Program-made: the position numbers and the translations under genes
The notes under the pieces: generated by a model
Told to the model about the DNA's origin: nothing
The model's database searches: none
The model's input: the letters and a program-made list of their open reading frames with translations, nothing else
Shown: in pieces, positions 9,370 through 21,434 of the stretch
How the letters are laid out: each line of letters starts with the position of its first letter
How positions within the stretch are numbered: the stretch's first letter is position 1
Source of the DNA: a virus
DNA length: 21,846 bases
Virus record (IMG/VR): IMGVR_UViG_3300034104_004183
Span: 1-21,846 of that record
Direction: 5' to 3' (one strand)

Positions 9370-9377
9370 TAGGAAAA

Positions 9378-10661: not shown

Positions 10662-10663
10662 AA

Positions 10664-10858
10664 TCAATCTCTGATATCAGATAAAAAATTATCAATAAAT
10701 TCCGACATTTCTTTCAATTCTTCAGCGTTCATTCTTATTTCAAATGGTTGATTATGATAATCATAAATTCTAACCAAGAATGGATTTTTTGATAGCAAAG
10801 TATTATGTAATATTTCTATAACATTATCCTCAAAAATAATTGTTTGAGATTTAACCAT
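10664..10858 (-). CDS. Small ELxxLADFI-family paralog (divergent)
   Basis: A 64-residue protein: beta-rich N-terminal part (QTIIFEDNVIEILHN), then RIYDYHNQPFEIRM and the C-terminal helix NAEELKEMSEFIDNFL. The last block aligns with EELKGLADFI, DELRGLADFI and DELLDLADFI in three other small genes of the same operon, so it is the most divergent member of that local family. The ATG overlaps the stop of the gene before it. Confidence 0.7.
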   Translation of the reverse strand: MVKSQTIIFEDNVIEILHNTLLSKNPFLVRIYDYHNQPFEIRMNAEELKEMSEFIDNFLSDIRD

Positions 10859-10860
10859 AA

Positions 10861-11160
10861 TTACGGATTAATAAATACTAGTTGATAAACCCACTGGACT
10901 TGCGGCTTGTTAACAATATAGTACCTCTTGCAAAAAACTCCAGAATATTCCATCACAACCTGTTGATTAACAATAAAAGGAACTGGTTGATATATTGACG
11001 GTCTTATGTATTGAACTACTGGATATGTAGAATATGTTTGAGTTGGATATGGAGCAACATATACTGCTGGTGGAGTTGGTTGCATAGATATCCACTCTTG
11101 ACCATTAGCAAGACCACAACATAGCATAAAACAGGCTAAACTAGTGAAAATCATTTTCAT
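10861..11160 (-). CDS. Secreted Pro/Tyr/Val-rich protein
   Basis: A 99-residue protein with a clear Sec signal peptide (MKMIFTSLACFMLCCGLANG, cleavage probably before QEW). The mature part is rich in Pro, Tyr, Val and Gln (PAVYVAPYPTQTY, PSIYQPVPFIVNQQ) with one Cys (FCKRYY) and little charge, resembling short secreted proteins of Planctomycetes and low-complexity envelope proteins. A lipobox is not convincing. AAGGAGATATTT precedes the ATG. It may be displayed at the host envelope during infection (inference). Confidence 0.75.
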   Translation of the reverse strand: MKMIFTSLACFMLCCGLANGQEWISMQPTPPAVYVAPYPTQTYSTYPVVQYIRPSIYQPVPFIVNQQVVMEYSGVFCKRYYIVNKPQVQWVYQLVFINP

Positions 11161-11252
11161 TAAATATCTCCTTATTGGGTTATATCAACTCATACCTGAA
11201 ACTTATAATACTTCTCACACCGCTTTACAAAAGTTTGGTTTCATCGTCTCTA

Positions 11253-11441
11253 TCATTTCTTTTCTCCAATAGTTTCATAAATAAAATCGGCTAACCCCTT
11301 GAGTTCTTCTTTTGTCAACTTCATTTGTATCCACTCCCAAGAGATAGCATTATTAATAGTCAGATTAAGTAGACTACCAGATCGTTCAAGATCAAACTTG
11401 AAAACATCAGCCTTATAAGAATCTTTAATTACCAAACTCAT
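11253..11441 (-). CDS. Small ELxxLADFI-family paralog
   Basis: A 62-residue protein (MSLVIKDSYKADVFKFDLERSG) with a beta-rich body and a C-terminal helix LTKEELKGLADFIYETIG. Its ATG overlaps the preceding stop (TAATG at 11441). Paralog of the products at 11799-11996, 11996-12175 and 10664-10858. Confidence 0.78.
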   Translation of the reverse strand: MSLVIKDSYKADVFKFDLERSGSLLNLTINNAISWEWIQMKLTKEELKGLADFIYETIGEKK

Positions 11442-11569
11442 TATTTTGTTCTTTCTAATAGATTGCTTAAAGTTGCGACACTATTATAGCGTACTGTCTC
11501 ATCACAAGCATTTATTGCGCACTTAATTACTTCAATTTCCTTATCTGTTAGAACTATCGGTTTAATCAT
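11441..11569 (-). CDS. 42-residue LTDKEI-family mini-protein
   Basis: ATG at 11569 overlaps the stop of the gene before, and the TAA overlaps the next ATG, a TAATG chain on both sides. Product MIKPIVLTDKEIEVIKCAIN..., helical. The block VLTDKEIEVIK matches LLTDKEIALVK in the 55-residue protein at 12930-13097, so the two are paralogs. Function unknown. Confidence 0.75.
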   Translation of the reverse strand: MIKPIVLTDKEIEVIKCAINACDETVRYNSVATLSNLLERTK

Positions 11570-11802
11570 TACTTATCTCTTTCATCTGATAGTCTTGTTT
11601 CGGCCGGTCTTGATTGAGGGGCTTTTGGTATAATTTGTTGCTTAGAAAATTCAATCCCTGCTTCAAATCCAGATGCAAAATAATTAAAGGAATTAGGAAC
11701 ACTTTTATACCATCCCTCACCTACCCATATGGGTTGAATATTCTTTTGGGATTTCTCATATTCACTCACAATAGTCTCTAGTTTAGTTTTATCGTCCATC
11801 AT
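11569..11802 (-). CDS. Hypothetical 77-residue protein
   Basis: Begins MMDDKTKLETIVSEYEKSQ; centre IWVGEGWYKSVPNSFNYFASGFEAG; tail Pro/Arg-rich and disordered (KAPQSRPAETRLSDERDK). Two adjacent ATGs (11802 and 11799); the first overlaps the preceding stop by 4 bp. No family recognised. Confidence 0.75.
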   Translation of the reverse strand: MMDDKTKLETIVSEYEKSQKNIQPIWVGEGWYKSVPNSFNYFASGFEAGIEFSKQQIIPKAPQSRPAETRLSDERDK

Positions 11803-11996
11803 TGATTTTTCCCAACAATACCATATATGAAATCGGCCAATCCCCTTAACTCGTCCCTATTGCAAGTATATCCAACACTAGTATCATTTCGATCATTATA
11901 AATACTAACGTGCATACGTCCATGACTCCAACAATCAATCCTAATATCAACTTGTTTATCTTTATCTAGATAATGCTGAACGGTTTTATCGGTCAT
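11799..11996 (-). CDS. Small ELxxLADFI-family paralog
   Basis: A 65-residue protein: TVQHYLDKDKQVDIRIDCWSH, then VSIYNDRNDTS and the C-terminal helix NRDELRGLADFIYGIVG. Start overlaps the TAA of the upstream paralog (TAATG). The two adjacent paralogs suggest tandem duplication. Confidence 0.78.
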   Translation of the reverse strand: MTDKTVQHYLDKDKQVDIRIDCWSHGRMHVSIYNDRNDTSVGYTCNRDELRGLADFIYGIVGKNQ

Positions 11997-12175
11997 TAAT
12001 TATTCTCCACAAACTCTTTAATGAAATCGGCCAAATCCAATAGTTCATCCCTGCTCATATTAGGATAAACATATTCACTAGCAATAATGAACTGATAAGG
12101 ATAGTCTTGATCTGTTGAGCGTCCCTTATTAATATGACTAATAAAGTCTCGTCCTTTGAATGAGTCTCGTTTCAT
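11996..12175 (-). CDS. Small ELxxLADFI-family paralog, first gene of the long operon
   Basis: ATG at 12175 (MKRDSFKGRDFISHINKGRS) runs 59 codons to a TAA that overlaps the next ATG. C-terminal block MSRDELLDLADFIKEFVEN aligns with its neighbours. It is the first gene after the promoter at 12232-12260, which then serves ten overlapping or close genes down to the sulfotransferase. Confidence 0.78.
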   Translation of the reverse strand: MKRDSFKGRDFISHINKGRSTDQDYPYQFIIASEYVYPNMSRDELLDLADFIKEFVENN

Positions 12176-12231
12176 TTAAAATTGATTTCTTTTGATTTGT
12201 GGGTTTGTTCTGATTTGTGGGTTTTCGGTGT

Positions 12232-12260
12232 ATTCTACCATATGAAGTATCGACTGTCAA
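12232..12260 (-). promoter_or_regulatory. Promoter of the 12175-9378 operon, CGATA spacer box
   Basis: TTGACA (12255-12260), 17 bp spacer GTCGATACTTCATATGG, TAGAAT (12232-12237), minus strand. The -35 region overlaps the ribosome-binding site of the plus-strand HNH gene. Confidence 0.85.
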
Positions 12261-12270
12261 GGGGACAAAC

Positions 12271-12894
12271 ATGAGAAAATGTCTAGATTGTGAAATAGAA
12301 TTAGGTCAATGTGGAAATGCTAAAAAACGATGTGATTCTTGTCAAAAAGAATATCGTAAATTATGTTGGAGAATGAGAGAAAAAGATCCAGCTAGAAAAG
12401 AACATAATAGACAACGACATAAAAAATTTAGAGACACTAATCCAGATAAGGTTAAAGAGTATGCTAAAAAATATAATGATAATTATAGGAAGGGAATCAA
12501 TAGACAAAATTATTTAGCTAAAAAAAGAGAACTTAATAAAAAATATTACCATGATAATATAGAAACTAAATTAGCTCAGGTATTGAGAAATAAACTTTGG
12601 AAATCACTAAAAGACCAAAATACAAATAAGGAAAATTCTGCATTAGAATTAGTAGGCTGTTCTAAAGAAGAATTAATAGAACACATACAATCCCAATTCA
12701 AAAAAGGTATGACATGGGAAAACTGGTCTTTAAATGGTTGGCATATTGACCATATTCGCCCAATATCATCGTTTAATCTTTCTGATTCTGCACAACAAAA
12801 AGAATGTTTTCACTATACTAATCTACAGCCTTTATGGGCAATAGAAAACCTTCAAAAATCAGATTTGTGGGAATCGGACCCAAAAGAAACCTGA
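12271..12894 (+). CDS. HNH endonuclease (putative free-standing homing type)
   Basis: A 207-residue nuclease and the only convincing plus-strand gene. It has an N-terminal Cys cluster (C4, C7, C14, C21, C24), a long Lys/Arg/Asn-rich linker (about 30-125), and a C-terminal HNH domain: SALELVGCSKEELIEHIQSQF, then WHIDHIRPISSFNL (H158, D160, H161), and HYTNLQPLWAIENLQKS with N184. The D-H-I-x-P-I and NLQPLW blocks are typical of phage and organellar HNH nucleases. The ATG at 12271 follows AAGGGGAC; the frame is open 18 codons earlier without a ribosome-binding site. Its strand, A-rich codon use and insertion at the head of another operon fit a selfish mobile gene. Confidence 0.88.
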   Translation: MRKCLDCEIELGQCGNAKKRCDSCQKEYRKLCWRMREKDPARKEHNRQRHKKFRDTNPDKVKEYAKKYNDNYRKGINRQNYLAKKRELNKKYYHDNIETKLAQVLRNKLWKSLKDQNTNKENSALELVGCSKEELIEHIQSQFKKGMTWENWSLNGWHIDHIRPISSFNLSDSAQQKECFHYTNLQPLWAIENLQKSDLWESDPKET

Positions 12895-12929
12895 TTCTTT
12901 TATTTCTTTACCATTTCATGCTCATTTGA

Positions 12930-13097
12930 TTAATTGATACTCTGATTATACTTTTTTGTGGGTACAATAGCCCTTAGACGGTTATAAATAATGGTCAAAT
13001 TTGTTGCTTCTGGAGTAATCTTCTCATGCAAATGATCACCTATAACCCTTTTGACGAGAGCGATTTCCTTGTCAGTTAACAGCACATTCTTATACAT
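12930..13097 (-). CDS. 55-residue LTDKEI-family mini-protein
   Basis: ATG at 13097 (MYKNVLLTDKEIALVKRVIG), 55 codons to TAA at 12930. Helical; the block LLTDKEIALVK is shared with the 42-residue protein at 11441-11569. Own promoter at 13154-13182. Function unknown. Confidence 0.65.
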   Translation of the reverse strand: MYKNVLLTDKEIALVKRVIGDHLHEKITPEATNLTIIYNRLRAIVPTKKYNQSIN

Positions 13098-13462
13098 AAA
13101 CCTTCATTTTTCCCGTGATTTATTAAACTTATCCCTATTACCACATAGTAGGTAGTATACCACGAATCACAGAGATAGTCAAGAGGAGTTATCGGCCAAT
13201 ACCATGAGTAGTCTTTAGCCTATTTGAACCACCGCTTTATTTAGTAAGTAAATTAACTAATTTTTGCTGGAAAAATACGCAAATATACGGCACTTTTCAA
13301 GGCTTTTCTAATGATGCAGAAGGAAAAGATGTATATTCTGAGGATTTATAGAAAGAAAAACAATAATTTATCACAAAACTTGATGAAATCATTAGGCTTA
13401 TGGTGATTATTGCTATGGATAGGAGGTTTTTCATGGTTTTTATGCGTATTTCTAACTCTTTT
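13098..13462. other. Non-coding stretch with one promoter and possible decayed reading frame
   Basis: Apart from the promoter at 13154-13182 I see no intact gene. A plus-strand frame from about 13211 to 13349 is open without a start codon, with a protein-like stretch (TQIYGTFQGFSNDAEGKDVY) that ends in TAG; further plus-strand sequence to about 13490 has hydrophobic runs broken by stops. It may be the remnant of an inactivated gene. Confidence 0.4.
13154..13182 (-). promoter_or_regulatory. Promoter of the 55-residue gene
   Basis: TTGACT (13177-13182), 17 bp spacer, TATACT (13154-13159), minus strand; no CGATA box. Confidence 0.75.
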
Positions 13463-13651
13463 TCATTCATGATTCTTGTACTCTAGTTTCGGAATAAGAT
13501 CATTAGTTTCTTGTGTCACAGATGCTATGGAAATTTTTAATAGTTGATTTTCTAGTGTTCCATGTAGTCTTATATGATTGTCCAACATTCTTTTGATTTG
13601 TTGACAAATTTTTTCACACGATATCTGTTGATTAAGATTATAAACTATCAT
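13463..13651 (-). CDS. Hypothetical 62-residue helical protein
   Basis: ATG at 13651 (MIVYNLNQQISCEKICQQIKRMLDNHIRLHG); an upstream in-frame ATG at 13681 would run through repeat R0, so the shorter start is preferred. Helical, with no recognised domain. R0 lies 7 nt upstream of the start. Confidence 0.6.
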   Translation of the reverse strand: MIVYNLNQQISCEKICQQIKRMLDNHIRLHGTLENQLLKISIASVTQETNDLIPKLEYKNHE

Positions 13652-13657
13652 GATCTC

Positions 13658-13702
13658 GCTGACTACGACCAAAAAAACCAAACGGGATATATTGAGTAAA
13701 AC
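13658..13702 (-). repeat. Leader repeat R0 (degenerate copy)
   Basis: Plus-strand CTGACTA at 13659 and GTAAAAC at 13696, 37 bp apart, with CCAA and GGGAT blocks between; the weakest copy of the R family. Confidence 0.45.
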
Positions 13703-13705
13703 ATT

Positions 13706-13915
13706 CTACTCTTCATTTGAGCAAAGTGGGTTGTCTAAATTAGTATTAAAATCATTTAGTATATTTTGTACTATACCACTAAGATCTGGAGATAGTCTAT
13801 CTGTAGTTAGTTCGTCCTTTCTTAGCCACACATATTCCTTATCGATTTTTCCTACCACATAATTGTTCTGACTAGCCCAATCTCTGACTTGTGCCAAAGA
13901 CAGTTTTTGACCCAT
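13706..13915 (-). CDS. Hypothetical 69-residue protein
   Basis: Begins MGQKLSLAQVRDWASQNNYVVGKI, a helix-turn-helix-like start (LAQVRDWASQNNY) followed by a strand KEYVWLRKDEL, so a small DNA-binding role is conceivable, then a helical tail (GIVQNILNDFNTNL). No family assigned. Confidence 0.68.
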   Translation of the reverse strand: MGQKLSLAQVRDWASQNNYVVGKIDKEYVWLRKDELTTDRLSPDLSGIVQNILNDFNTNLDNPLCSNEE

Positions 13916-13983
13916 AATTATTTTGTTAACATTAACACTCCGTTAGTAAATTAACCATGTTAATAGTAATATACACCCAAAGA

Positions 13984-14202
13984 TTATTCGTTATCCAACT
14001 CACTCAACTCTATACTAACCACCTGACCACCAATCACAAGATCGCTTGGTTTTCCATACGGCCAGATAGAGCTATTTGTTAGTTGCCATGAGTTGTAGAA
14101 TCTTAGTTCCGTTTGATTCACTACTTCTTTAGGATCAATATTGTCCTTATACAACTCTATTTCAAAAGTTATATTCATAGTATATTTAACAGTATTCTTC
14201 AT
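13984..14202 (-). CDS. Hypothetical 72-residue beta-rich protein
   Basis: Begins MKNTVKYTMNITFEIELYKDNIDPKEVV; ends SDLVIGGQVVSIELSELDNE. The pattern strand - helix - strand (ITFEIELY / ELRFYNSW / QVVSIELSEL) suggests a small alpha/beta sandwich. Repeat R1 is 12 nt upstream of the start, with GGTGG as ribosome-binding site. Confidence 0.7.
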   Translation of the reverse strand: MKNTVKYTMNITFEIELYKDNIDPKEVVNQTELRFYNSWQLTNSSIWPYGKPSDLVIGGQVVSIELSELDNE

Positions 14203-14213
14203 ATGCCACCAAA

Positions 14214-14264
14214 GTTAACTGACTACGCCACCTCCGCCAATCTTGGGGATTTGGGTAAGACAGT
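14214..14264 (-). repeat. Leader repeat R1
   Basis: Plus-strand CTGACTA (14219) and GTAAGAC (14255), 36 bp apart, with an imperfect dyad CAATC...GATTTG between; immediately upstream of the 13984-14202 gene. Confidence 0.65.
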
Positions 14265-14308
14265 CCTAAAATTTATTTTCTTGACAGACCCTAGAATATA
14301 TATTATAT

Positions 14309-14356
14309 CTTATGCAGAGACGTAAGTAATAATATATCTCTTCTTCCCTGCATAAG
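14309..14356. other. Stem-loop, 9-bp perfect outer stem
   Basis: CTTATGCAG (14309-14317) pairs with CTGCATAAG (14348-14356); an inner AGAGA / TCTCT can extend the structure. The loop side contains CGTAAGT, the same core as in the A-E repeats. No T-tract on either strand, so not a simple terminator. Confidence 0.5.
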
Positions 14357-14394
14357 AGTAATAGATGTAGTTAGAACATAGGAGGTTGACACAA

Positions 14395-14423
14395 GGATGG
14401 ATATCGGTTATTATACATTACTC
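14395..14423 (+). promoter_or_regulatory. Plus-strand promoter with no clear gene downstream
   Basis: TTGACA (about 14395), a 17-bp spacer CAAGGATGGATATCGGT, then TATTAT. It points toward the convergent 14555-14713 gene, so an antisense or non-coding RNA is possible. Confidence 0.5.
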
Positions 14424-14554
14424 ACTCAAGTTTCTGACGACGGCAGTATGATAGGATTGTGAACAATAACATAAATCATAACCATGATAATATTTATATA
14501 GGGCAGATAAGGATAAAGCATAAGCATTAGAAGTATAATCCGTTATGAAAGGAA

Positions 14555-14713
14555 TTAGTAGTAATATTTGACGTTAACAATATTCTCAGGACCAAGAATC
14601 AAACAAGTATCTTGATTCAAGAATTGTTGATTAAGATAATCAGCTAGAGATTTAGGATCATCACTAACATTATCATCAACACCAACCTCCACCTGAATAG
14701 TAACAATTTTCAT
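14555..14713 (-). CDS. Hypothetical 52-residue protein
   Basis: ATG at 14713 with AAGGAGA nearby (MKIVTIQVEVGVDDNVSDDP), ending IVNVKYYY. Strand - acidic loop - helix (KSLADYLNQQF) - strand, a compact alpha/beta mini-protein. Promoter at 14736-14763. Confidence 0.68.
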   Translation of the reverse strand: MKIVTIQVEVGVDDNVSDDPKSLADYLNQQFLNQDTCLILGPENIVNVKYYY

Positions 14714-14735
14714 GAAGAGTCTCCTTGACTACCCC

Positions 14736-14763
14736 AGTATAACATAGGTATCGACCAGGACAA
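14736..14763 (-). promoter_or_regulatory. Promoter with CGATA spacer box (52-residue gene)
   Basis: TTGTCC (14758-14763), 16 bp spacer TGGTCGATACCTATGT, TATACT (14736-14741), minus strand. Confidence 0.68.
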
Positions 14764-14781
14764 CGACCTGACTATACAGAG

Positions 14782-14925
14782 TTATGAGTTTATAATGCTT
14801 TTCATTTTAATAGTAATATTATCAAATGTTTTACTAACAGCCCCAGTAACAACATAATCATTACTATAAGCTTTGATAGCATCCAGAATTTTATGAGCCT
14901 CAGATTTTGTAATTTCTATTTGCAC
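14782..14925 (-). CDS. Hypothetical 47-residue protein, GTG start
   Basis: GTG at 14925 is preceded by a very strong GGGAGGAAAA ribosome-binding site, which decides the start; the frame runs 47 codons (VQIEITKSEAHKILDAIKAY...) to TAA at 14782. Strand - helix - strand layout as in the neighbouring 52-residue protein. Probably transcribed from the promoter at 15081-15109 through repeat R2, although a TATACA box at 14936-14941 could be a closer start. Confidence 0.65.
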   Translation of the reverse strand: MQIEITKSEAHKILDAIKAYSNDYVVTGAVSKTFDNITIKMKSIINS

Positions 14926-14960
14926 TTTTCCTCCCTGTATAATCAATGTATCGCATTTTT

Positions 14961-15010
14961 TGGCTGACTATCGCCAAGACCGCAAATCTGGTAGTTTGGG
15001 TAAGACTTAC
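14961..15010 (-). repeat. Leader repeat R2
   Basis: Plus-strand TTGGCTGACTATCGCC then GTAAGAC 36 bp after CTGACTA; imperfect dyad CAAATCTGGTAGTTTG between. Confidence 0.65.
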
Positions 15011-15080
15011 ACTATTTTAATGTTGAGATTTTATTGAGATTACAATCTCTCAAAATGTTACTACCGTGTTTACTATTCAT

Positions 15081-15109
15081 AGTATAGCACACACCACCAC
15101 TTGACGCAA
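15081..15109 (-). promoter_or_regulatory. Promoter upstream of R2 and the 47-residue gene
   Basis: TTGCGT (15104-15109), 17 bp, TATACT (15081-15086), minus strand; no CGATA box. Confidence 0.6.
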
Positions 15110-15154
15110 GGCGTTGAGAATCATAGAGTTACGATCGATTCTTATAGCAATATT

Positions 15155-15204
15155 TTGGCTGACTATCAGCATGACCAGCAATCCGGCCGGATTAGGTAAA
15201 ACAG
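15155..15204 (-). repeat. Leader repeat R3
   Basis: Plus-strand TTTTGGCTGACTATCAGC then GTAAAAC 37 bp after CTGACTA; contains the palindrome AATCCGGCCGGATT. No gene follows it. Confidence 0.6.
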
Positions 15205-15261: not shown

Positions 15262-15290
15262 ATTATATCGACATTCTCGACCTGTGTCTA
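15262..15290 (-). promoter_or_regulatory. Promoter downstream of repeat A
   Basis: TAGACA (15285-15290), 17 bp, TATAAT (15262-15267), minus strand. No coding gene between it and the next promoter. Confidence 0.55.
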
Positions 15291-15300
15291 TAGACTTTTT

Positions 15301-15372
15301 GACGTAAGTCCTTGGTACTCTTAAAGTTATGGCTAAATTTCGCCCGGCCGTTTGTTCTAAGTCCTTTGATAC
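15301..15372 (-). repeat. Three-site intergenic repeat, copy A (diverged)
   Basis: TAAGT at 15305, inverted and degenerate AGTTA at 15325, TAAGT at 15358: the same 20 and 33 bp spacing as copies B-E, with CCCGGCCG in the 33-bp gap. It precedes a promoter at 15262-15290. Confidence 0.65.
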
Positions 15373-15401
15373 CAATCACTTATGTCAAATCGACAAAATA
15401 C

Positions 15402-15441
15402 AAAAAAACGAAGGCCACCCCCCGTCAGAAGGATGGCCCTC
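15402..15441 (-). terminator. Rho-independent terminator of the DUF932 gene
   Basis: Minus-strand 11-bp stem GAGGGCCATCC / GGGTGGCCTTC (15410-15441, two G-T pairs) followed within one base by seven T (15402-15408). Confidence 0.92.
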
Positions 15442-15473
15442 GTCCGCTGGCACCCGCCACGAAAGGAGAACGG

Positions 15474-16421
15474 TTAGATAGCGTTGGCAAACTCTACGGC
15501 AGTATTGAGTGCCTTGAGATTATCAACCCCATTCTGACCGAACCAGAGAGAGTCCAGGCGATTACTCACCGTGCGACCCTTGCTGTAGTTCAGATATTCA
15601 TTGAAGCCATTGTAGGCAGCCCACCACGTTCCACGAACACCAACAGCACTCTGCTTCGGACCTTCGACCAGGGTCAAAATCTCGTCCATAATATTACGGG
15701 TACGAGTCTTGATATCCTGCTCTGGAGTCTTATCAATGCCGAGCATAACCTTGACATACTTTTGAACATCATTCTGGTTAAAGTCTCGACTAGCCAGGAA
15801 TCGGTACTGTTCAGCAGTAGCCTCAAACTGGGCGTTGATATTGTCCATAATATCTCGCACATTGTCGAGGTTAGTCTTGCTCGACCGTGTGTGACGAATA
15901 CGAATCAGCGAACTAGCCTTGCTGCTGTGAGCAGCGGCGAGAGTATTCACACACACAACCCGAATCGGAGTATATCCGACACGAATCGAAGTGGTGCCAT
16001 CATGACTGTTGGAGAGCAAAATGAACTTGCTCACCTCGTCACCCTTGACGATCTCGCTGTTCTCACGATTGAGTTGAGCCAGCACCCAAACCTTCTCGCC
16101 CTCACTGAGCGAACCAGCGGTGTGCAACTGGCACTCACCAGCGTCGAGAAACGGCTGAAACCAATCGAACGCATCCTGATTCTGGAGCGGAGTGTAGCGT
16201 GGACCGACAACACCCAAGACACGATTGTCGTTCTTGCGATATGTGGCTTTGGCATTGACCTGTTGACCATCAGAGGTAAACAGATCCTTAGTGCCAACCT
16301 CCCAATCCAGACCAGCGGCCACAATGGCCTCGCTAATCGAGGGGTTCTCATCCAACTGCGTACCCTCACCATGCCAAGGGGTGGCACCGACAAACATCAT
16401 CTTTTCAACCATAGCAGGCAT
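15474..16421 (-). CDS. DUF932 phage/plasmid-like protein
   Basis: A 315-residue DUF932 protein, a family widespread in phages and plasmids and of unknown biochemical role. Diagnostic blocks: MFVGATPWHGEGTQLDENPSI at the N-terminus, LDWEVGTKDLF, VVGPRYTPLQNQDAFDWF (about 90-107), GEKVWVLAQL, SHDGTTSIRVGYTPIRVVCVNTL (about 161-183) and a C-terminal AYNGFNEYLNYSKGRT block. The gene is conspicuously GC-rich compared with the left part of the window. The start at 16421 has AAAGGGATAG upstream. Single-gene unit from the promoter at 16464-16492 to the strong terminator at 15402-15441; the combination suggests high expression. Confidence 0.95.
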   Translation of the reverse strand: MPAMVEKMMFVGATPWHGEGTQLDENPSISEAIVAAGLDWEVGTKDLFTSDGQQVNAKATYRKNDNRVLGVVGPRYTPLQNQDAFDWFQPFLDAGECQLHTAGSLSEGEKVWVLAQLNRENSEIVKGDEVSKFILLSNSHDGTTSIRVGYTPIRVVCVNTLAAAHSSKASSLIRIRHTRSSKTNLDNVRDIMDNINAQFEATAEQYRFLASRDFNQNDVQKYVKVMLGIDKTPEQDIKTRTRNIMDEILTLVEGPKQSAVGVRGTWWAAYNGFNEYLNYSKGRTVSNRLDSLWFGQNGVDNLKALNTAVEFANAI

Positions 16422-16463
16422 ATCTATCCCTTTCGTGTTACTGAACCTTCGTTACGTCCTTCG

Positions 16464-16492
16464 ATTCTACCATCTAGTATCGGCAGTGTCAA
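16464..16492 (-). promoter_or_regulatory. Promoter with CGATA spacer box (DUF932)
   Basis: TTGACA (16487-16492), 17 bp spacer CTGCCGATACTAGATGG, TAGAAT (16464-16469): both hexamers near consensus, minus strand. Repeat B is just upstream. Confidence 0.92.
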
Positions 16493-16500
16493 GCCTCAGC

Positions 16501-16600
16501 CTTGAGATTTTTTTTGGCGAACGTAAGTCGTTGTGGCGTAAGCACTTACGTCGAGCGGGGCGGGGCGGCATCGCCCTAAGTCCTTGGCGGGCTTGGATTT
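16501..16600 (-). repeat. Three-site intergenic repeat, copy B
   Basis: TAAGT 16524, ACTTA 16544, TAAGT 16577 (plus-strand starts; spacing 20 and 33). GC-rich block between sites 2 and 3. One edge carries CTTGAG plus a T-run. It encodes the last residues and stop of the phosphoribosyltransferase gene. Confidence 0.8.
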
Positions 16601-17082
16601 AGGAAAGGTGTGCGATATCTCTGTTCGAACATTTTAACTGTTGCGGTAGTGTACGCACACTCGTCTGGGATATAGCAATATAGGCCCGTACATATCGCTT
16701 TTGGGTTATCCTCATGAATAGCTTGGCGAATCCACTTAAACGTATCACCAGAACAAATCAAATCATCCACCACCACATATCTGAAAGGAGAAGCTCCTTC
16801 TATCCAGAACTCGCTGTATCTTTTCTCGTCTGGCTTACGAACAATAACAATATTCTTATTTAGTAGTTCAGCTATTTGTGGTACTACCATTAAGCCACTA
16901 ACCCCACAGCACGCTATGCTATCAAAAGTATTCTCAATCTTTCGCAGATCGCACACAGCCTTAATAATAATCTTATTGCGATTCTTATGATTCAGAACCC
17001 TACAAGTATGACTCGCCCCCTGGATAACTTTCCCGTCCTCAGTCATACGATAGCTATCAAGCTGATGATTAAGAATATTCAT
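16576..17082 (-). CDS. Phosphoribosyltransferase-like protein
   Basis: A 168-residue type I phosphoribosyltransferase-fold protein. The PRPP-binding loop is RYVVVDDLICSGDTF (about 101-115), with the two acidic residues and the SGDT turn expected; the pyrophosphate-side loop is IACCGVSGLMVVPQIAE (about 56-72). It would transfer a ribose-5-phosphate group or bind PRPP in nucleotide salvage; the base is not deducible. The C-terminus NPSPPRT is encoded inside repeat B, suggesting that the repeat's arrival reshaped the end. The ATG at 17082 is 4 nt after a tRNA-like element and lacks a ribosome-binding site; Met13 (17046) is an alternative, also without one. Confidence 0.85.
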   Translation of the reverse strand: MNILNHQLDSYRMTEDGKVIQGASHTCRVLNHKNRNKIIIKAVCDLRKIENTFDSIACCGVSGLMVVPQIAELLNKNIVIVRKPDEKRYSEFWIEGASPFRYVVVDDLICSGDTFKWIRQAIHEDNPKAICTGLYCYIPDECAYTTATVKMFEQRYRTPFLNPSPPRT

Positions 17083-17085
17083 AAA

Positions 17086-17161
17086 AACGGATGGTACGAT
17101 TCGAACGTACTAGAAAGAGAAAAAGATAAGATAAGAACTTGTCCCACCAAGTCGCATCCGT
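17086..17161 (-). ncRNA. tRNA-like element lacking an anticodon stem
   Basis: A 76-nt element of exact tRNA length. Acceptor ACGGATG (17155-17161) pairs with CATCCGT (17087-17093), 7 of 7; a D-like stem ACTT / AAGT; a perfect T arm GTACG-TTCGAAT-CGTAC. The anticodon-arm region (about positions 26-51) is nearly all pyrimidine with only three A, so no stem can form. It lies between the acidic mini-protein gene (stop 17175) and the phosphoribosyltransferase start (17082). It could be a decayed tRNA or a processing/regulatory mimic in the mRNA leader. Confidence 0.7.
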
Positions 17162-17174
17162 CGAAGAAGAAGGC

Positions 17175-17333
17175 TCAATCGTCCACTATTTCGTCTGCAA
17201 TATTATGATAATAGTTTTCCCATGCCTCTAATCCATCATCATAAATATCATTCTCATATACGTCATCTTCATATTCGTTAGTAAGTGTTTCATTATCGTA
17301 AAGATCTTCGTATTCTTCATCATAATAATTCAT
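17175..17333 (-). CDS. 52-residue highly acidic protein
   Basis: ATG at 17333 has AAGGAGATATCT upstream and is chosen over an earlier in-frame start. The product (MNYYDEEYEDLYDNETL...) is dominated by D, E, Y and N, with one W-rich turn (LEAWENYYHNI). Such acidic mini-proteins can mimic DNA (as phage anti-restriction proteins do), but the sequence alone does not show this. Promoter at 17354-17381. Confidence 0.72.
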   Translation of the reverse strand: MNYYDEEYEDLYDNETLTNEYEDDVYENDIYDDGLEAWENYYHNIADEIVDD

Positions 17334-17353
17334 AGATATCTCCTTCTTTTGAT

Positions 17354-17381
17354 ATTCTACACCAACCAACGAAATTGTCAA
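17354..17381 (-). promoter_or_regulatory. Promoter of the acidic mini-protein
   Basis: TTGACA (17376-17381), 16 bp, TAGAAT (17354-17359), minus strand; the -35 sits 1 nt from the tRNA-Lys 3' end. Confidence 0.8.
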
Positions 17382-17382
17382 G

Positions 17383-17455
17383 TGGGCCCCCAGGGACTCG
17401 AACCCTGAACCTAAGAGTTAAAAGCTCCTTGCTCTGCCAATTGAGCTAGAGGCCC
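17383..17455 (-). tRNA. tRNA-Lys (UUU)
   Basis: 73 nt. Acceptor GGGCCTC / GGGGCCC, anticodon loop CTTTTAA with anticodon TTT, T loop TTCGAGT, discriminator A; CCA not encoded. Confidence 0.95.
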
Positions 17456-17468
17456 ATGTTGTTTTTTT

Positions 17469-17497
17469 AGTTTACCAGAAGATTCTTTCTCTGTCAA
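17469..17497 (-). promoter_or_regulatory. Promoter of tRNA-Lys
   Basis: TTGACA (17492-17497), 17 bp, TAAACT (17469-17474), minus strand; start point expected about 7 nt before the tRNA. The -35 lies next to the tRNA-Glu 3' end. Confidence 0.75.
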
Positions 17498-17498
17498 G

Positions 17499-17571
17499 TG
17501 ACCCTACTGGGATTCGAACCCAGATACTTGGAACGAAAATCCAAGGTCCTAAACCGTTAGACGATAGGGCC
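17499..17571 (-). tRNA. tRNA-Glu (UUC)
   Basis: 73 nt. Acceptor GGCCCTA / TAGGGTC, anticodon loop TTTTCGT with anticodon TTC, T loop TTCGAAT, discriminator A; CCA not encoded. Confidence 0.95.
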
Positions 17572-17609
17572 ACTCTCGTAACTCAGCATCAGCCTCCGAA
17601 GCATAAAAG

Positions 17610-17685
17610 TAGGGCGTGTACGAGTCGAACGTACCTATGAACACCTTATAAGAGTGTCGGATGCTACCGGCTTACCTTACGCCCC
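17610..17685 (-). tRNA. tRNA-Ile (UAU)
   Basis: 76 nt. Acceptor GGGGCGT / ACGCCCT, anticodon loop CTTATAA with anticodon TAT, T loop TTCGACT, discriminator A. A direct TAT anticodon reads AUA without needing lysidine. Confidence 0.92.
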
Positions 17686-17693
17686 GTATACTA

Positions 17694-18065
17694 TCACCAC
17701 CAACTGTTATACTCTACATGGAGTCCAGAGTCAAGAGCCTCTCTAGCTTTGGAGATAAACTCCAAATCCTTTTCCATATAGTAATCGTCACTATCTTGTC
17801 CAAAGAAAAATCCCATAGTTTCTGGCATATGCTTGTTTTTGATTGCATTTTCCAGATTATTCAGATCCTCATGGGTCAGTTCAACAGGAATACAGTTAAA
17901 ATCACTCATGCCAAGAGCATTATCTTCATCTGGCTTGCCAGGACAACCCTTTTCATGCCAGAGATTTTCCATCCAGCCTTGCAGATTAGGATGCTTTCTC
18001 CAATAGGCGAGTTCTTCCTTCTCTCCATTGTTGTCGATAGCGTGAGCGTACTGGTCAAGTCCCAT
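17694..18065 (-). CDS. Conserved phage-type protein (MGLDQYA family)
   Basis: A 123-residue protein starting MGLDQYAHAI, with blocks LAYWRKHPNLQGWMENLW, FNCIPVELTHEDLNNLENAI, MPETMGFFFGQDSDD and a SWW C-terminus. Uncharacterised phage and bacterial proteins with the same MGLD-x-Y start and W-[RQ]-K-H-P-x-L-x-x-W-M core are familiar to me, sometimes with doubtful enzyme names; I give none. Own promoter at 18089-18117. Its 3' end carries the promoter for tRNA-Ile. Confidence 0.85.
   Translation of the reverse strand: MGLDQYAHAIDNNGEKEELAYWRKHPNLQGWMENLWHEKGCPGKPDEDNALGMSDFNCIPVELTHEDLNNLENAIKNKHMPETMGFFFGQDSDDYYMEKDLEFISKAREALDSGLHVEYNSWW
17706..17734 (-). promoter_or_regulatory. Promoter of tRNA-Ile and tRNA-Glu, inside a coding 3' end
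   Basis: TTGACT (17729-17734), 17 bp, TATAAC (17706-17711), minus strand; lies within the last codons of the MGLDQYA gene, about 20 nt before tRNA-Ile. Confidence 0.75.
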
Positions 18066-18088
18066 TGTTTGTTCCTTTCATTTCTCGT

Positions 18089-18117
18089 ATTCTACATCTA
18101 TTATCGGCTGTTGTCAA
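18089..18117 (-). promoter_or_regulatory. Promoter with CGATA spacer box (MGLDQYA gene)
   Basis: TTGACA (18112-18117), 17 bp spacer ACAGCCGATAATAGATG, TAGAAT (18089-18094), minus strand. Confidence 0.9.
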
Positions 18118-18124
18118 GAGGTAA

Positions 18125-18205
18125 CTTGAGAAAATCCTAAGTCGTTGAACAGAAAGAACTTACGACGATCCCGGCCCGCTAGATTCGCTCTAAGTCTTTA
18201 TGCGA
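18125..18205 (-). repeat. Three-site intergenic repeat, copy C
   Basis: TAAGT 18138, ACTTA 18158, TAAGT 18191 (spacing 20 and 33); CCCGGCCCG in the 33-bp gap; flanked by CTTGAG on the promoter side and by tRNA-Tyr on the other. Confidence 0.8.
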
Positions 18206-18215
18206 CAATGAGTTA

Positions 18216-18298
18216 TGGTGGATGAGAGATTCGAACTCCCGAAGGCGATAGCCAGCAGATTTACAGTCTGCCCTCGTTGTCCACTTGAGTAATCCACC
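18216..18298 (-). tRNA. tRNA-Tyr (GUA)
   Basis: 83 nt with long variable arm. Acceptor GGTGGAT / ATCCACC, anticodon loop CTGTAAA with anticodon GTA, T loop TTCGAAT, discriminator A. Last gene of the five-tRNA array. Confidence 0.95.
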
Positions 18299-18301
18299 GA
18301 A

Positions 18302-18388
18302 CGGAAGAAGTAGGATTCGAACCCACGGACCCAATTAAGGGTCGCCGGTTTAGTAAACCGGTGCATTAGACCACTCTGCCATTCTTCC
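18302..18388 (-). tRNA. tRNA-Ser with unusual ACU anticodon
   Basis: 87 nt, type II. Acceptor GGAAGAA / TTCTTCC, discriminator G as in serine tRNAs, long variable arm GACCC / GGGTC. Anticodon stem CCGGT / ACCGG encloses loop TTACTAA, giving anticodon ACT (AGU codon). Serine AGY tRNAs normally carry GCU. Confidence 0.88.
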
Positions 18389-18393
18389 ATTAG

Positions 18394-18466
18394 CTGCCCA
18401 GGTAGGACTCGAACCTACAACCCAGCGGTTAACAGCCGCTTGCAACTACCATTGTGCTACTGGGCA
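18394..18466 (-). tRNA. tRNA-Asn (GUU)
   Basis: 73 nt. Acceptor TGCCCAG / CTGGGCA, anticodon loop CTGTTAA with anticodon GTT, T loop TTCGAGT, discriminator G. Confidence 0.95.
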
Positions 18467-18477
18467 ATATTCTCTAA

Positions 18478-18548
18478 TTCCGGGGCTAGGATTCGAACCC
18501 AGACAAGATGATCCAAAGTCATCGGTGCTACCGTTACACCACCCCGGA
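18478..18548 (-). tRNA. tRNA-Gln (UUG)
   Basis: 71 nt. Acceptor TCCGGGG / CCCCGGA, anticodon loop CTTTGGA with anticodon TTG, T loop TTCGAAT, discriminator A. Only 1 nt separates it from tRNA-Thr. Confidence 0.95.
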
Positions 18549-18549
18549 G

Positions 18550-18622
18550 AGCCGAAGACCGGGAACGATCCGGTGACATTTGGTTTACAAAACCAATGCT
18601 CTACCAACTGAGCTACTTCGGC
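18550..18622 (-). tRNA. tRNA-Thr (UGU), atypical T loop
   Basis: 73 nt. Acceptor GCCGAAG / CTTCGGC, anticodon loop TTTGTAA with anticodon TGT, discriminator T. T stem ACCGG / CCGGT is perfect, but the loop is ATCGTTC: A54 and T58 instead of T54 and A58. Confidence 0.92.
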
Positions 18623-18631
18623 AATCTACAT

Positions 18632-18660
18632 ATCATACTCTCGACGCCAACTCCTGTCAA
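18632..18660 (-). promoter_or_regulatory. Promoter of the five-tRNA array
   Basis: TTGACA (18655-18660), 17 bp, TATGAT (18632-18637), minus strand; no CGATA box. Start point about 3 nt before tRNA-Thr. Confidence 0.85.
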
Positions 18661-18689
18661 TATCATTTCGTGTACGCTTACGTTTCGGC

Positions 18690-19022
18690 CTATTGTCGAA
18701 CGTAGTGACCGACCGATCCTCCTTGTGTCCCGTAGGAACCTGCCACTGTGGCTTGACCTTGAGCTTGACCATGTTGCGGCGTGGACGCATATCGTCGTTG
18801 TTGTGGAGCGTAATCATACCATTGTCCATTTTCGTGTAGATAGAAAACCTTATCAATATTAGGATCGTAAGCCATTAAGCAGTATTGTACTGGATAAACA
18901 GGTTTTGTCAAGACTTGTTTTTGAGGAAGTTGTGGGATTTTTATATCACCTTTCTGATAATCTTTTACACCATTATAGGCCAATCCCAGAATCGCAATCA
19001 GAATACCAACCCACTGGATCAT
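18690..19022 (-). CDS. Membrane-anchored protein with Gln/Gly-rich tail
   Basis: ATG at 19022 has AAGGGGTGA upstream and is preferred to an earlier ATG pair at 19058 that overlaps the promoter region. N-terminal span MIQWVGILIAILGLAYNGV anchors the protein; then a Lys/Gln/Pro linker, a compact segment PVQYCLMAYDPNIDKVFYLHENGQWYDY, and a low-complexity tail (QGQATVAGSYGTQGGSVG). Orientation with the tail outside the membrane is likely but not certain. Function unknown. Confidence 0.75.
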   Translation of the reverse strand: MIQWVGILIAILGLAYNGVKDYQKGDIKIPQLPQKQVLTKPVYPVQYCLMAYDPNIDKVFYLHENGQWYDYAPQQRRYASTPQHGQAQGQATVAGSYGTQGGSVGHYVRQ

Positions 19023-19060
19023 CCGTTCACCCCTTAGTGTTGCTCGTCGTGCCATCATGC

Positions 19061-19089
19061 TCTATTTATCGGCAATCGCCCACAATCAA
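19061..19089 (-). promoter_or_regulatory. Weak promoter with GCCGATA spacer box
   Basis: TTGATT (19084-19089) and a poor -10 (AATAGA at 17 bp), minus strand; GCCGATAAATAGA matches the spacer box of the better promoters. Upstream of the membrane-anchored gene, downstream of repeat D. Confidence 0.45.
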
Positions 19090-19195
19090 CTTGAGAGGAT
19101 TTTTAGATTTTCTCTAAGTGTTTGTGGCATAAGGACTTACGTCGAGCCGGGCGGGCCGCCCTCGCCCTAAGTGCTTTAGGGACAAGGGTTTGCGA
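19090..19195 (-). repeat. Three-site intergenic repeat, copy D
   Basis: TAAGT 19115, ACTTA 19135, TAAGT 19168 (spacing 20 and 33); GCCGGGCGGGCCGCC between sites; CTTGAG and a T-run at one edge, CAAGGGTTTG at the other. Confidence 0.82.
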
Positions 19196-19429
19196 TTAGT
19201 CCTCCAGTGCCCAACCCGCCTTCTGAATCACCTTCGCACTCTTATAGACTTTCGTGTCGGATAACGCTGTTGCATAATCCTTGAATCCTCTTTCGTCTAC
19301 ATAGAAATATTCATCCAGTACATCAAACTTGTTAGTTTCCCACAGAGCATCCTTTGCCGCCCCGAATGGTTTCTTATCTGTTGAGTAAATAAGTTCTAGG
19401 GTTCCACACTTAATATAATACTTAGCCAT
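19196..19429 (-). CDS. Hypothetical 77-residue protein
   Basis: Compact protein MAKYYIKCGTLELIYSTDKKP...FDVLDEYFYVDERGF...VIQKAGWALED. The regular strand pattern (YYIKCGTLELIYS, DEYFYVDERGF) suggests a small beta sheet. It overlaps the zinc-ribbon gene before it by 8 bp. Family not recognised. Confidence 0.78.
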   Translation of the reverse strand: MAKYYIKCGTLELIYSTDKKPFGAAKDALWETNKFDVLDEYFYVDERGFKDYATALSDTKVYKSAKVIQKAGWALED

Positions 19430-19595
19430 TTTTCATCTCCGTACTAAGATATTGCATATCTTCATCACAATCGCAACAAACTGGAGTGCCAATATTCATA
19501 TAGTCCCATGGCACAACAGCAGTCTCGTCGCCACATTCCGCACAACGCCAAACGTGTCGGATTTTAGTATCGTCAATAACTTGCCAGTTTTCCAT
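19422..19595 (-). CDS. 57-residue zinc-ribbon protein
   Basis: ATG at 19595 with AAGGATATAAA upstream; 57 codons to TAA at 19422, overlapping the next ATG. Cysteine pattern WRC18-AE-C21 and VCC41-D-C43 (CAEC...CCDC) is a zinc ribbon. Third gene from the 20309 start, same strand. Confidence 0.72.
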   Translation of the reverse strand: MENWQVIDDTKIRHVWRCAECGDETAVVPWDYMNIGTPVCCDCDEDMQYLSTEMKNG

Positions 19596-19604
19596 TTTAT
19601 ATCC

Positions 19605-20309
19605 TTAGTGTGCAGGAAACAATACGTTAGCCAAGCCCTTGACGCACATGTCACATGATATACTATCTTTGGTTCCGGTGCAAGTGATAACCGAACGACC
19701 ACGACGGATTTCTGGACAAACCACAAACTTTGTCGCATTGAGAACCACCAGCTTGGGCAACGCTTTTCGCCATGCGTCTGCCTTTGCCTTGTTCTTAGGA
19801 CGCTTAGGTGCAACCTTCATGTCGCTATCGCACCATGCGAACAGTTTGAAACCTTGGACCAGTGCTTCGCCCATGTCGTTATCATCATGCACACTAGCGT
19901 ATACATTCATATACTTTTCCAGACTCACAAGCCGGGAATCATAGATATGAGTATAGAACCACATATCGGGCAGACTATCACCATCGGCAAGAATACTCTC
20001 ACAAGCCCATGTCACATTGGCAAGATAGTCAAGGTCGAGTTCGCCATTGAGAAACCAATCGCCACGCTCGTGCCACCGAATAGACTTCTCACGACGCTTT
20101 GCCTCAAGAATCATGGCACGGATTTTATTCTTCTCCGTCACGACATTAGCAAAACCAGCCGTGCGGGCATTTTTATACTGATTCTCGGTAGCTTCAGCGT
20201 AGCAACCGTTGCCGAGATAGTCGCAATCGGGAGGACAAGTGTCGCCAACCGGACGAGAAACCACAATACAACCCTTACCCAACTTATCATTACCATCAGC
20301 AGTTTTCAT
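19605..20309 (-). CDS. Gp88-like cysteine-rich phage protein
   Basis: A 234-residue protein with an N-terminal cysteine set C14, C25-x3-C29-x6-C36 (GCIVVSRP, then CPPDCDYLGNGCYAEATENQ), a central KSIRWHERGDWF and PDMWFYTHIYDSRL, and C-terminal cysteines (FVVCPE, TCTG, SCDMCVKGLANVLF). The TCP...C..GCYA opening resembles the phage Gp88 / DUF7227 families; role unknown, a metal or Fe-S centre is likely. Promoter at 20334-20362. First gene of a three-gene unit with 19422-19595 and 19196-19429. Confidence 0.82.
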   Translation of the reverse strand: MKTADGNDKLGKGCIVVSRPVGDTCPPDCDYLGNGCYAEATENQYKNARTAGFANVVTEKNKIRAMILEAKRREKSIRWHERGDWFLNGELDLDYLANVTWACESILADGDSLPDMWFYTHIYDSRLVSLEKYMNVYASVHDDNDMGEALVQGFKLFAWCDSDMKVAPKRPKNKAKADAWRKALPKLVVLNATKFVVCPEIRRGRSVITCTGTKDSISCDMCVKGLANVLFPAH

Positions 20310-20333
20310 AGCTTTCTCCTAGCGTGTCTCTCG

Positions 20334-20362
20334 ATTCTACTCTACTAATATCGATAAGTCAA
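20334..20362 (-). promoter_or_regulatory. Promoter with CGATA spacer box (Gp88-like gene)
   Basis: TTGACT (20357-20362), 17 bp spacer TATCGATATTAGTAGAG, TAGAAT (20334-20339), minus strand. Confidence 0.85.
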
Positions 20363-20387
20363 GAGTGATTTTGTAAGAAAACTTTAG

Positions 20388-20459
20388 TAGCCCCAAGAGG
20401 AATCGAACCTCTAACTAGACTTTAGAAGAGTCCTGTTATATCCATTTAACTATGGGGCC
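20388..20459 (-). tRNA. tRNA-Arg (UCU)
   Basis: 72 nt. Acceptor GGCCCCA / TGGGGCT (G1-T72 wobble), anticodon loop CTTCTAA with anticodon TCT, T loop TTCGATT, discriminator A; CCA not encoded. Confidence 0.95.
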
Positions 20460-20467
20460 GCAATACC

Positions 20468-20499
20468 GCAAGCCCCCACGGCGTCCCGTGGAGGCTCGC
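20468..20499. other. Strong GC stem-loop between the 20525 gene and tRNA-Arg
   Basis: 14-bp stem (GCAAGCCCCCACGG against CCGTGGAGGCTCGC, two G-T pairs) with a 4-base loop and no T-tract. It may terminate transcription poorly, protect the mRNA 3' end or act as a processing site before the tRNA. Confidence 0.7.
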
Positions 20500-20503
20500 A
20501 GCT

Positions 20504-20532
20504 ATTATAACTCCTTAGAGTTGGTCACGCAA
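20504..20532 (-). promoter_or_regulatory. Promoter of tRNA-Arg, overlapping a stop codon
   Basis: TTGCGT (20527-20532), 17 bp, TATAAT (20504-20509), minus strand; the -35 overlaps the last codons of the 20525-20782 gene. Confidence 0.65.
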
Positions 20533-20782
20533 CTGCTTCGACAGTGACCTTGCTAGCCTTAGCCTTGTGGCCGTCGCCAGCTTCCTTGACACCGATACCG
20601 AACTTGCGATTACGAGCAACCTTCCAACCCTGCTCACTATACTCCTTCACACCATCAGCCTTGACGAGAGCCAGCGTGTCGCTAGGCAATCCATCAACAA
20701 GGGTCTGACGCAGCGTATCCTCAATAACCTCACAATCAAGACCGTCCGCAGCAATCGTCACATTGAAACTATAAGCCTTCAT
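20525..20782 (-). CDS. Hypothetical 85-residue protein
   Basis: Begins MKAYSFNVTIAADGLDCEVIEDTLRQTL, with a strand-helix start, then VKEYSEQGWKVARNRKFGIGVKEAG and a basic tail (GHKAKASKVTVEAVA). GGAGGTTTACT precedes the ATG. Two promoters in tandem (20824-20852 and 20912-20940) suggest high or regulated expression. No family recognised. Confidence 0.82.
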   Translation of the reverse strand: MKAYSFNVTIAADGLDCEVIEDTLRQTLVDGLPSDTLALVKADGVKEYSEQGWKVARNRKFGIGVKEAGDGHKAKASKVTVEAVA

Positions 20783-20823
20783 AGTAAACCTCCAAAGTGT
20801 AAAAACCTATCCAACATATGACT

Positions 20824-20852
20824 AGTATACGCTACTAATCACCACTTGTCAA
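20824..20852 (-). promoter_or_regulatory. Proximal promoter of the 20525 gene
   Basis: TTGACA (20847-20852), 17 bp, TATACT (20824-20829), minus strand. Confidence 0.85.
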
Positions 20853-20854
20853 GC

Positions 20855-20890
20855 CTGCTATGACGGTTTCGATTGTTGTCATCGTAGCAG
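20855..20890. other. Stem-loop between the tandem promoters
   Basis: CTGCTA / TAGCAG outer stem plus TGAC / GTCA inner stem with a 3-base bulge. It would form in the leader made from the distal promoter. Confidence 0.4.
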
Positions 20891-20911
20891 CCACTTGCGT
20901 CGTGTTCTATC

Positions 20912-20940
20912 ATTCTACAGTATAGTATCGGCACTGTCAA
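20912..20940 (-). promoter_or_regulatory. Distal promoter with CGATA spacer box
   Basis: TTGACA (20935-20940), 17 bp spacer GTGCCGATACTATACTG, TAGAAT (20912-20917), minus strand; repeat E is just upstream. Confidence 0.9.
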
Positions 20941-20948
20941 GGTCGTCT

Positions 20949-21062
20949 CTTGAGTCTGAATCCATTTTTTTTAGATTAATCGTAAAGTGTTGACACATAA
21001 GCACTTACGTCAAGGTCGGCCCGCCCTCTTTGCCGTAAGTCTTTACAGCACAAGGGTTTGTG
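20949..21062 (-). repeat. Three-site intergenic repeat, copy E
   Basis: TAA(A)GT 20983, ACTTA 21003, TAAGT 21036 (spacing 20 and 33); GGCCCGCC between; CTTGAG and a T-run at one edge; the other edge abuts the stop of the 21063 gene. Confidence 0.8.
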
Positions 21063-21434
21063 TCATGAGAGAAAACCCTCACAACCCAAGTCGATCAAAT
21101 CACACAACAGAGACTCTGCCGCTTCCGGCGTTTTCAGAGTCATCGTGTTTTGATTAGCGCCACCAACACGCCACTTGCCAAACTGGTCATAATAACCAAC
21201 GATTACATCCGTCCAATCCTTGGCTTCCTTCAAGCCCCATCCAGTGTGTTCACGGATAGCCTTGATGCAGCGGATGCGGTTGTCTGTTGTCATACCACCA
21301 GTAATCGTAACCATTCGACGCTGGTTAACGCCCAATGCTACCTCAAACGCCTTTGTGATCTGCTCACGCATCTCTACAGGAGCATAGATAGCAAGTTCCA
21401 TAGCCTCACGAACGCTCAGTTGCAGATTGATCAT
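21063..21434 (-). CDS. Protein with ribosomal L7/L12 C-terminal-like domain
   Basis: A 123-residue protein. Residues about 52-78 (NRIRCIKAIREHTGWGLKEAKDWTD) match the signature of the ribosomal protein L7/L12 C-terminal domain, in which I-K-x-[IV]-R-x-x-T-G-x-G-L-K-E-A-K-x-x-[VT] recruits translation factors. The N-terminal part (SVREAMELAIYAPVEMREQITKAF) replaces the usual dimerisation domain and is helical. A role in binding host translation GTPases is inference; such domains also occur in phage and bacterial proteins of unknown role. The start overlaps the preceding stop by 4 bp (ATGA). Confidence 0.78.
   Translation of the reverse strand: MINLQLSVREAMELAIYAPVEMREQITKAFEVALGVNQRRMVTITGGMTTDNRIRCIKAIREHTGWGLKEAKDWTDVIVGYYDQFGKWRVGGANQNTMTLKTPEAAESLLCDLIDLGCEGFLS

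Follow-up and report, generated by a model that had tools for sequence, protein, structure and literature searches.

A paired palindrome repeated before successive genes of large uncultured aquatic phages, a candidate platform for transcriptional control

Why does one noncoding sequence recur in front of gene after gene of a virus? The question was raised by a virus record of 21,846 bases (IMGVR_UViG_3300034104_004183 of IMG/VR; this whole stretch is called the window), in which an initial annotation had described five intergenic repeat copies, A to E. All five were present where it had placed them. The repeat is a module of two palindromes around a GC-rich core, and many large uncultured aquatic phages carry it before successive genes in one block of the genome. 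It probably serves, at the DNA level, as a regulatory platform for a putative oligomeric regulator that would contact RNA polymerase.

Anatomy and occurrence of the module

Each module is a pseudo-palindrome of about 90 bp, in which two 25-bp palindromes (TAAGTnnTTn7AAnnACTTA) flank the GC-rich core. The palindromes occupy positions 0-24 and 53-77 of the module core; their dyads are centred on 12 and 65, and the overall centre of symmetry, 38.5, is located inside the GC-rich part. Two palindromes per module make four half-sites, not three, which alternate in direction, starting with forward; the three sites described at first were there, the fourth, inverted one had been overlooked. The full half-site consensus, obtained from a profile of related copies, is about TYGACSTAAGTSCTTR. 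With this profile the five window copies scored 51.7-97.4 and the next-best place in the window -52, thus they are not chance occurrences. TAAGT, ACTTA and TAAGT had been reported to start exactly 20 and 33 bp apart in every copy. This applied to B, C and D only: the second site of A has decayed, as had been stated, and the first half-site of E reads TAAAG, in register. Invariant AA/TT steps 21, 32 and 21 bp apart place the sites on one face of the DNA in the lineage with the 20/33 spacing (33-bp lineage), as had been suggested, but not in sister lineages with other cores.

Comparison of covariation with base conservation gave no sign of pairing. In 248 non-redundant copies the pair positions had no consistent Watson-Crick excess over independence, neither for hairpins nor for central pairing. 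Some pair positions were Watson-Crick less often than independence predicts, and the strongest couplings were those between sequence neighbours. Pair covariation was also not found in 183 palindromes from other lineages. Because base-pair covariation is absent, the modules look like protein-binding DNA sites and not like RNA hairpins.

The strict 20/33 pattern (22 bases) was present in more than 119 viral-contig stretches of IMG/VR, whereas the control spacings 21/33 and 20/43 had no match in these contigs; the 20/32 spacing was present in 27 stretches, genuine relatives that represent a sister variant. Among the loci retrieved with the 20/33 pattern, which form a biased set, the TAAGT-to-ACTTA distance was 20 in 416 cases, the median being 1. 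The repeat is real and of far greater extent than had been described. Copies were on average 60 % identical within a genome and 75 % identical at the same gene junction across genomes; a recent duplication of the copies is ruled out by the low identity of the paralogues. A host chromosomal element was rejected as well: among 84,980 bacterial and archaeal genomes the 20/33 form occurred on three short contigs of metagenome-assembled genomes only, two with phage-like arrays, the third AT-rich and of another type. A portal protein was common to 30 of the 34 module-bearing contigs tested (44-82 % identity); the other four may be fragments. Neither a portal match nor a module match was obtained in 50,697 deposited phage records. 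For other lineages the search gave no matches or only short, scattered ones, and no cultured relative came to light. LR756511, a DUF932 relative, lacks the module in the 40 kb at either end. A literature search, limited to open-access papers, found no description of the element.

Phages of 200-240 kb have one module cluster each, with 12-25 copies at about one per kb. In genome G009 (237,915 bp) all 17 copies are located at 133.4-151.7 kb and none elsewhere, and the array region has a GC content of 42-44 % versus 31-39 % in the remainder. The window carries the end of the array (gene families 3/5, 2/1, 8, 9, 10 and 11), with 46 % GC in the array part versus 32-34 % in the remainder. Gene order and module positions in the array are conserved between genomes. 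At junctions comparable in many genomes, modules stand at the orthologous boundaries of transcription units (5>2, 14/14; 6>15, 14/14; 8>9, 13/13; 10>11, 12/12) and are missing from operon-internal junctions (0/16, 0/15, 0/12 and 0/11), hence the presence per junction is nearly all-or-none. The upstream stop codon mostly lies 2-3 bp before the module core (77 cases), and the module polarity, read with an oriented profile, is consistent along transcription. At some junctions module and promoter were gained or lost jointly: at 1>17 two genomes have both and most others have neither. At 2>1, 12 other genomes have a module; the window has none, but has a promoter.

Other lineages have the same palindromes with a different fixed core (27, 25, 23, 17 or 33 bp). 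When the distance between the palindromes was left free within 14-44 bp, scanning revealed families with gaps from 14 to 43, mostly uniform per contig. The core measures 28 bp in the window and in main-clade regions, 27 bp in each of the 13 G042 modules and in almost every module of G044 and G045, 25 bp in 7/7 modules of G048 and 17 bp in 15/15 of G047. A distant portal homologue (23-29 %) was present in 13 of 16 contigs of the other-gap families. G042 has the gene order of the main clade and genes up to 94 % identical, yet every module is 1 bp shorter; the half-sites have drifted too, and its modules mostly show weak sequence-level orthology to the main-clade modules that occupy the same junctions. 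This 1-bp change is concerted, and may have come about by many single changes or by spread through conversion.

Single four-site modules with 32-bp spacing were observed in the contigs L179, L189, L196, L198, L192 and L186 (458, 381, 180, 73, 60 and 48 kb), in which a portal homologue was not found. On inspection, the genes next to the single-copy modules of other large phages had no DNA-binding gene in common.

Promoter phasing and the proposed regulator

A strict sigma70-type promoter was found on the gene side of 249 of 320 modules versus the other side of 6; the background, estimated from 200-base stretches taken at random within these regions, was about 60 per 668. The distances from the end of the module core to the -35 box cluster at 20, 30-31 and 41 bp (modal values of 81 downstream gene families), and the Rayleigh test on these families was significant near 10.5-11 bp. 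In several lineages the -35 box is located at about 20, 31, 41 or 51 bp, i.e., in helical-turn steps. With distances above 80 bp left out, the lineage with a 27-bp core had values of 29-32, 39-42 and 49-52 (R 0.80 at 10.25-10.5 bp) and the one with a 25-bp core 36-39 and 47-50 (R 0.79); the phasing was weaker with the 17-bp core (R 0.53). These lineages give independent support for the phasing. The spacing to the -35 box, which had been regarded as loose, does vary in the window, but by steps of about one helical turn (20 bp at C, 31 at B and 42 at E; 14 at A and about 32 at the weak site of D). A simple activator site had been considered the poorer fit on that ground; this view is unsupported, because the -35 spacing is phased as at activators that touch RNA polymerase.

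We propose that an oligomeric DNA-binding protein would bind both 25-bp operators as one complex and in this way measure the length of the core. The stop codon of one unit precedes the platform and the sigma70-type promoter of the next follows it, with the -35 box in helical register; the bound complex would touch RNA polymerase directly. It is the combination of placement, polarity and register that would make such a contact the most likely mode of action. An island of about 20 kb of small genes, tRNAs included, would be switched as one regulon by this trans-acting protein, which is presumably specific to the phage lineage. The earlier view of a cooperative protein-binding module agrees well with the four half-sites, the rigid geometry, the lack of pairing covariation and the strict placement at unit boundaries. 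A sigma70 region-4 protein was found in 10/10 genomes searched. Near-consensus promoters suit repression or insulation and helical phasing suits contact; activation seems likelier than repression.

Several observations weigh against this platform. The phasing in the 33-bp lineage is weak beyond about 50 bp, and in an earlier non-redundant set the periodicity was unclear without the 30-bp class, therefore this lineage alone provides moderate evidence of phasing. All p-values are nominal because the genomes are related. The promoter cores are near consensus, so an activator is not demanded, and the same promoter class occurs without modules outside the array. Among the Pfam families listed for 127 non-array proteins of the 238-kb genome G009, sigma-factor-type proteins were the only DNA-binding regulators.

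Near-consensus promoters would also agree with an insulator or roadblock, at which a bound protein, similar to stoperators, halts read-through from upstream and each unit is controlled alone. Modules that begin at the upstream stop codon, stand at unit boundaries and never within operons, and keep their polarity along transcription are in line with it; a pure roadblock, however, requires no helical register with the downstream -35 box, and at 1>17 the module was gained along with a new promoter. We consider an insulator unlikely, but worth keeping in mind. The joint gain and loss of module and promoter could rather recall a mobile regulatory cassette or a site-specific recombination site that shuffles genes, as T4 PeSLs or integron attC sites do. 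Small-gene cassettes with modules between them, the single copies in large phages without a portal homologue and a slightly better conservation of the upstream module half where only the upstream gene is shared (69.5 % versus 64.9 %) would agree. Against this stand the copies, which diverged rather than being homogenised, and the gene order; because the order is conserved, together with the module positions, a mobile module in the usual sense, as considered initially, is unsupported, and only the joint appearance or disappearance of the module-promoter pair at a junction remains of it. Tyrosine recombinases, the cognate enzymes of attC sites, had no match in 9/10 genomes and a sub-threshold match in the tenth; serine recombinases and transposases were not searched. 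A cassette of this kind is improbable.

The single cluster of 12-25 sites per genome might suggest a function in genome organisation, with partition, replication-origin or nucleoid sites gathered in one locus. The strict link to unit boundaries, polarity and promoter phase speaks against such sites, and we regard this as very improbable. Least credible is an RNA element, whose hairpins, placed at the 3' end of units, would terminate transcription or mark the transcript for processing. The palindromes are able to form long hairpins and are located after stop codons, but the partners vary independently, with 5-19, 6-18 and 9-15 at or below the expected pairing rate, and the phasing to the downstream promoter is left unexplained; the missing covariation strongly disfavours a hairpin or terminator.

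For the regulatory platform, the fixed core lengths lead one step further. If the spacing is read by a single trans-acting protein, one would expect the core to change in concert; gene conversion is the alternative. It is conceivable, at somewhat less than an even chance in our estimate, that one oligomeric regulator reads the paired palindrome, that the core length acts as a lineage-specific ruler and that the arrays of sites change together with the protein. Just as tentatively, such a ruler system may be a previously undescribed one, carried by large aquatic phages that form a deep, uncultured assemblage. If true, the lineages would present a natural series of co-evolved protein-DNA rulers, and the concerted core change of G042 amid such similar neighbouring genes makes the co-evolution of regulator and sites testable. 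With the module as signature, it would be possible to search for a single regulon common to many large uncultured phages; this regulon would cover mostly unknown small genes, which may serve host takeover. The module also marks the promoters that should be tested as a group in these phages.

Copies in the window and further motifs

The coordinates of the five copies and their promoters are given in Table 1; module A is the most degenerate copy.

Table 1. Modules A to E of the window with the promoters on their gene side; the distance is that between module and -35 box
Feature	Position	Strand	Elements	Score or distance	Remarks
Module A core	15305..15382	-	palindromes 15305-15329 (decayed), 15358-15382; GC core 15330-15357	score 51.7	after DUF932 gene
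Module A promoter	15262..15290	-	-35 TAGACA 15290-15285, spacer 17, -10 TATAAT 15267-15262	14 bp	
Module B core	16524..16601	-	palindromes 16524-16548, 16577-16601; GC core 16549-16576	score 85.8	exact pattern; between phosphoribosyltransferase-like gene 16576-17082(-) and DUF932 gene 15474-16421(-)
Module B promoter	16464..16492	-	-35 TTGACA 16492-16487, spacer 17, -10 TAGAAT 16469-16464	31 bp	
Module C core	18138..18215	-	palindromes 18138-18162, 18191-18215; GC core 18163-18190	score 73.8	exact pattern; between tRNA cluster 18216-18622(-) and gene 17694-18065(-)
Module C promoter	18089..18117	-	-35 TTGACA 18117-18112, spacer 17, -10 TAGAAT 18094-18089	20 bp	
Module D core	19115..19192	-	palindromes 19115-19139, 19168-19192; GC core 19140-19167	score 97.4	exact pattern; between gene 19196-19429(-) and gene 18690-19058(-)
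Module D weak promoter-like site	19054..19082	-	TGGGCG / CATGAT, GCCGATAAATA box	~32 bp	below strict criteria
Module E core	20983..21060	-	palindromes 20983-21007, 21036-21060; GC core 21008-21035	score 88.8	adjoins stop codon of gene 21063-21434(-)
Module E promoter	20912..20940	-	-35 TTGACA 20940-20935, spacer 17, -10 TAGAAT 20917-20912	42 bp	

The gene at 21063-21434 has a stretch similar to the C-terminal part of ribosomal protein L7/L12 and belongs to array family 5, present in 19 genomes. Another dispersed repeat of about 37 bp was noticed at 13650, 14955 and 15150, with GGCTGACTA in two of the three copies. The AT-rich part of the window (1-15200) encodes a tmRNA (5042-5395), DUF1501 and DUF1552 proteins, a UvdE-type endonuclease and a sulfotransferase. 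This gene content gives hints at the host: the DUF1501 and DUF1552 genes are of types that we take to be associated with planctomycetes. G009 (L173-L176) encodes Volactin-family actin-like, SET-domain and RuvB-type proteins.

Two further motifs were observed near promoters or modules. In many promoters, both in the array and at 156-191 kb of G009, a conserved CGATA box (e.g., GCCGATAATA) lies within the spacer or directly behind the -10 box, whether a module is present or not; it is possibly an operator for another regulator. A sigma54-like motif, TGGCAY-N5-TTGC, occurred 91 times in 651 kb of array regions versus 0 and 1 times at spacings of 6 and 4. In the arrays of G001-G024 (e.g., the flanks of L126-L165) it is mostly oriented toward the module at a distance of 10-20 bp; of five records searched in full, some (G001) had their hits mainly within or close to the array and others did not, and the window has none. 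The motif is real, but a sigma54 regulon with the module as enhancer (upstream activating sequence) was rejected, as a phage-encoded sigma54 activator domain (PF00158) was found in 0/10 genomes searched, although the host could encode such an activator.

Comparison with known systems

The extended start-associated sequences (ESAS) of cluster K mycobacteriophages appear to be the nearest published parallel. ESAS are imperfect inverted repeats present in many copies beside genes of the non-structural genome part; their consensus varies by subcluster, the authors saw little support for RNA pairing and inferred DNA-binding proteins, and the function is unknown (PMC3203893). In an ESAS, two 17-bp repeats are separated by a spacer that varies, mostly within 4-13 bp, and the element is tied to the 13-bp start-associated sequence (SAS, GGGATAGGAGCCC) at start codons (PMC3203893). 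Both elements thus share repeated inverted repeats, a group-specific consensus, little sign of RNA pairing and a presumed protein binding. The module differs as a double palindrome upstream of promoters and in phase with them; its core is fixed within a genome and specific to the lineage, and it lies beside the upstream stop codon, although the SAS sequence was not searched for. Stoperators of cluster A mycobacteriophages are repressor sites that recur in short gaps between genes and follow the direction of transcription; each is a single asymmetric site of 13 bp to which a monomer binds (PMC9283540). The module shares the orientation with transcription, but has two 25-bp palindromes, i.e., four half-sites in a rigid array, and is phased to the promoter.

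The PeSLs of T4-type phages are promoter/stem-loop cassettes, tied, as Arbiol reportedly described in 2010, to gene shuffling. They resemble the modules in the combination of promoter and palindrome between small genes; here, however, the order is conserved and no selection for hairpins was seen, while the presence of module plus promoter varies at some junctions. The sites of class I activators (CRP) and of phi29 p4 are palindromes upstream of the -35 box at helical-turn steps, and binding of a class I activator raises transcription via the alpha subunit of RNA polymerase. The module is likewise located upstream of the -35 box at helical-turn increments, but differs from these sites as a double palindrome with a fixed core that is placed at each unit of an array.

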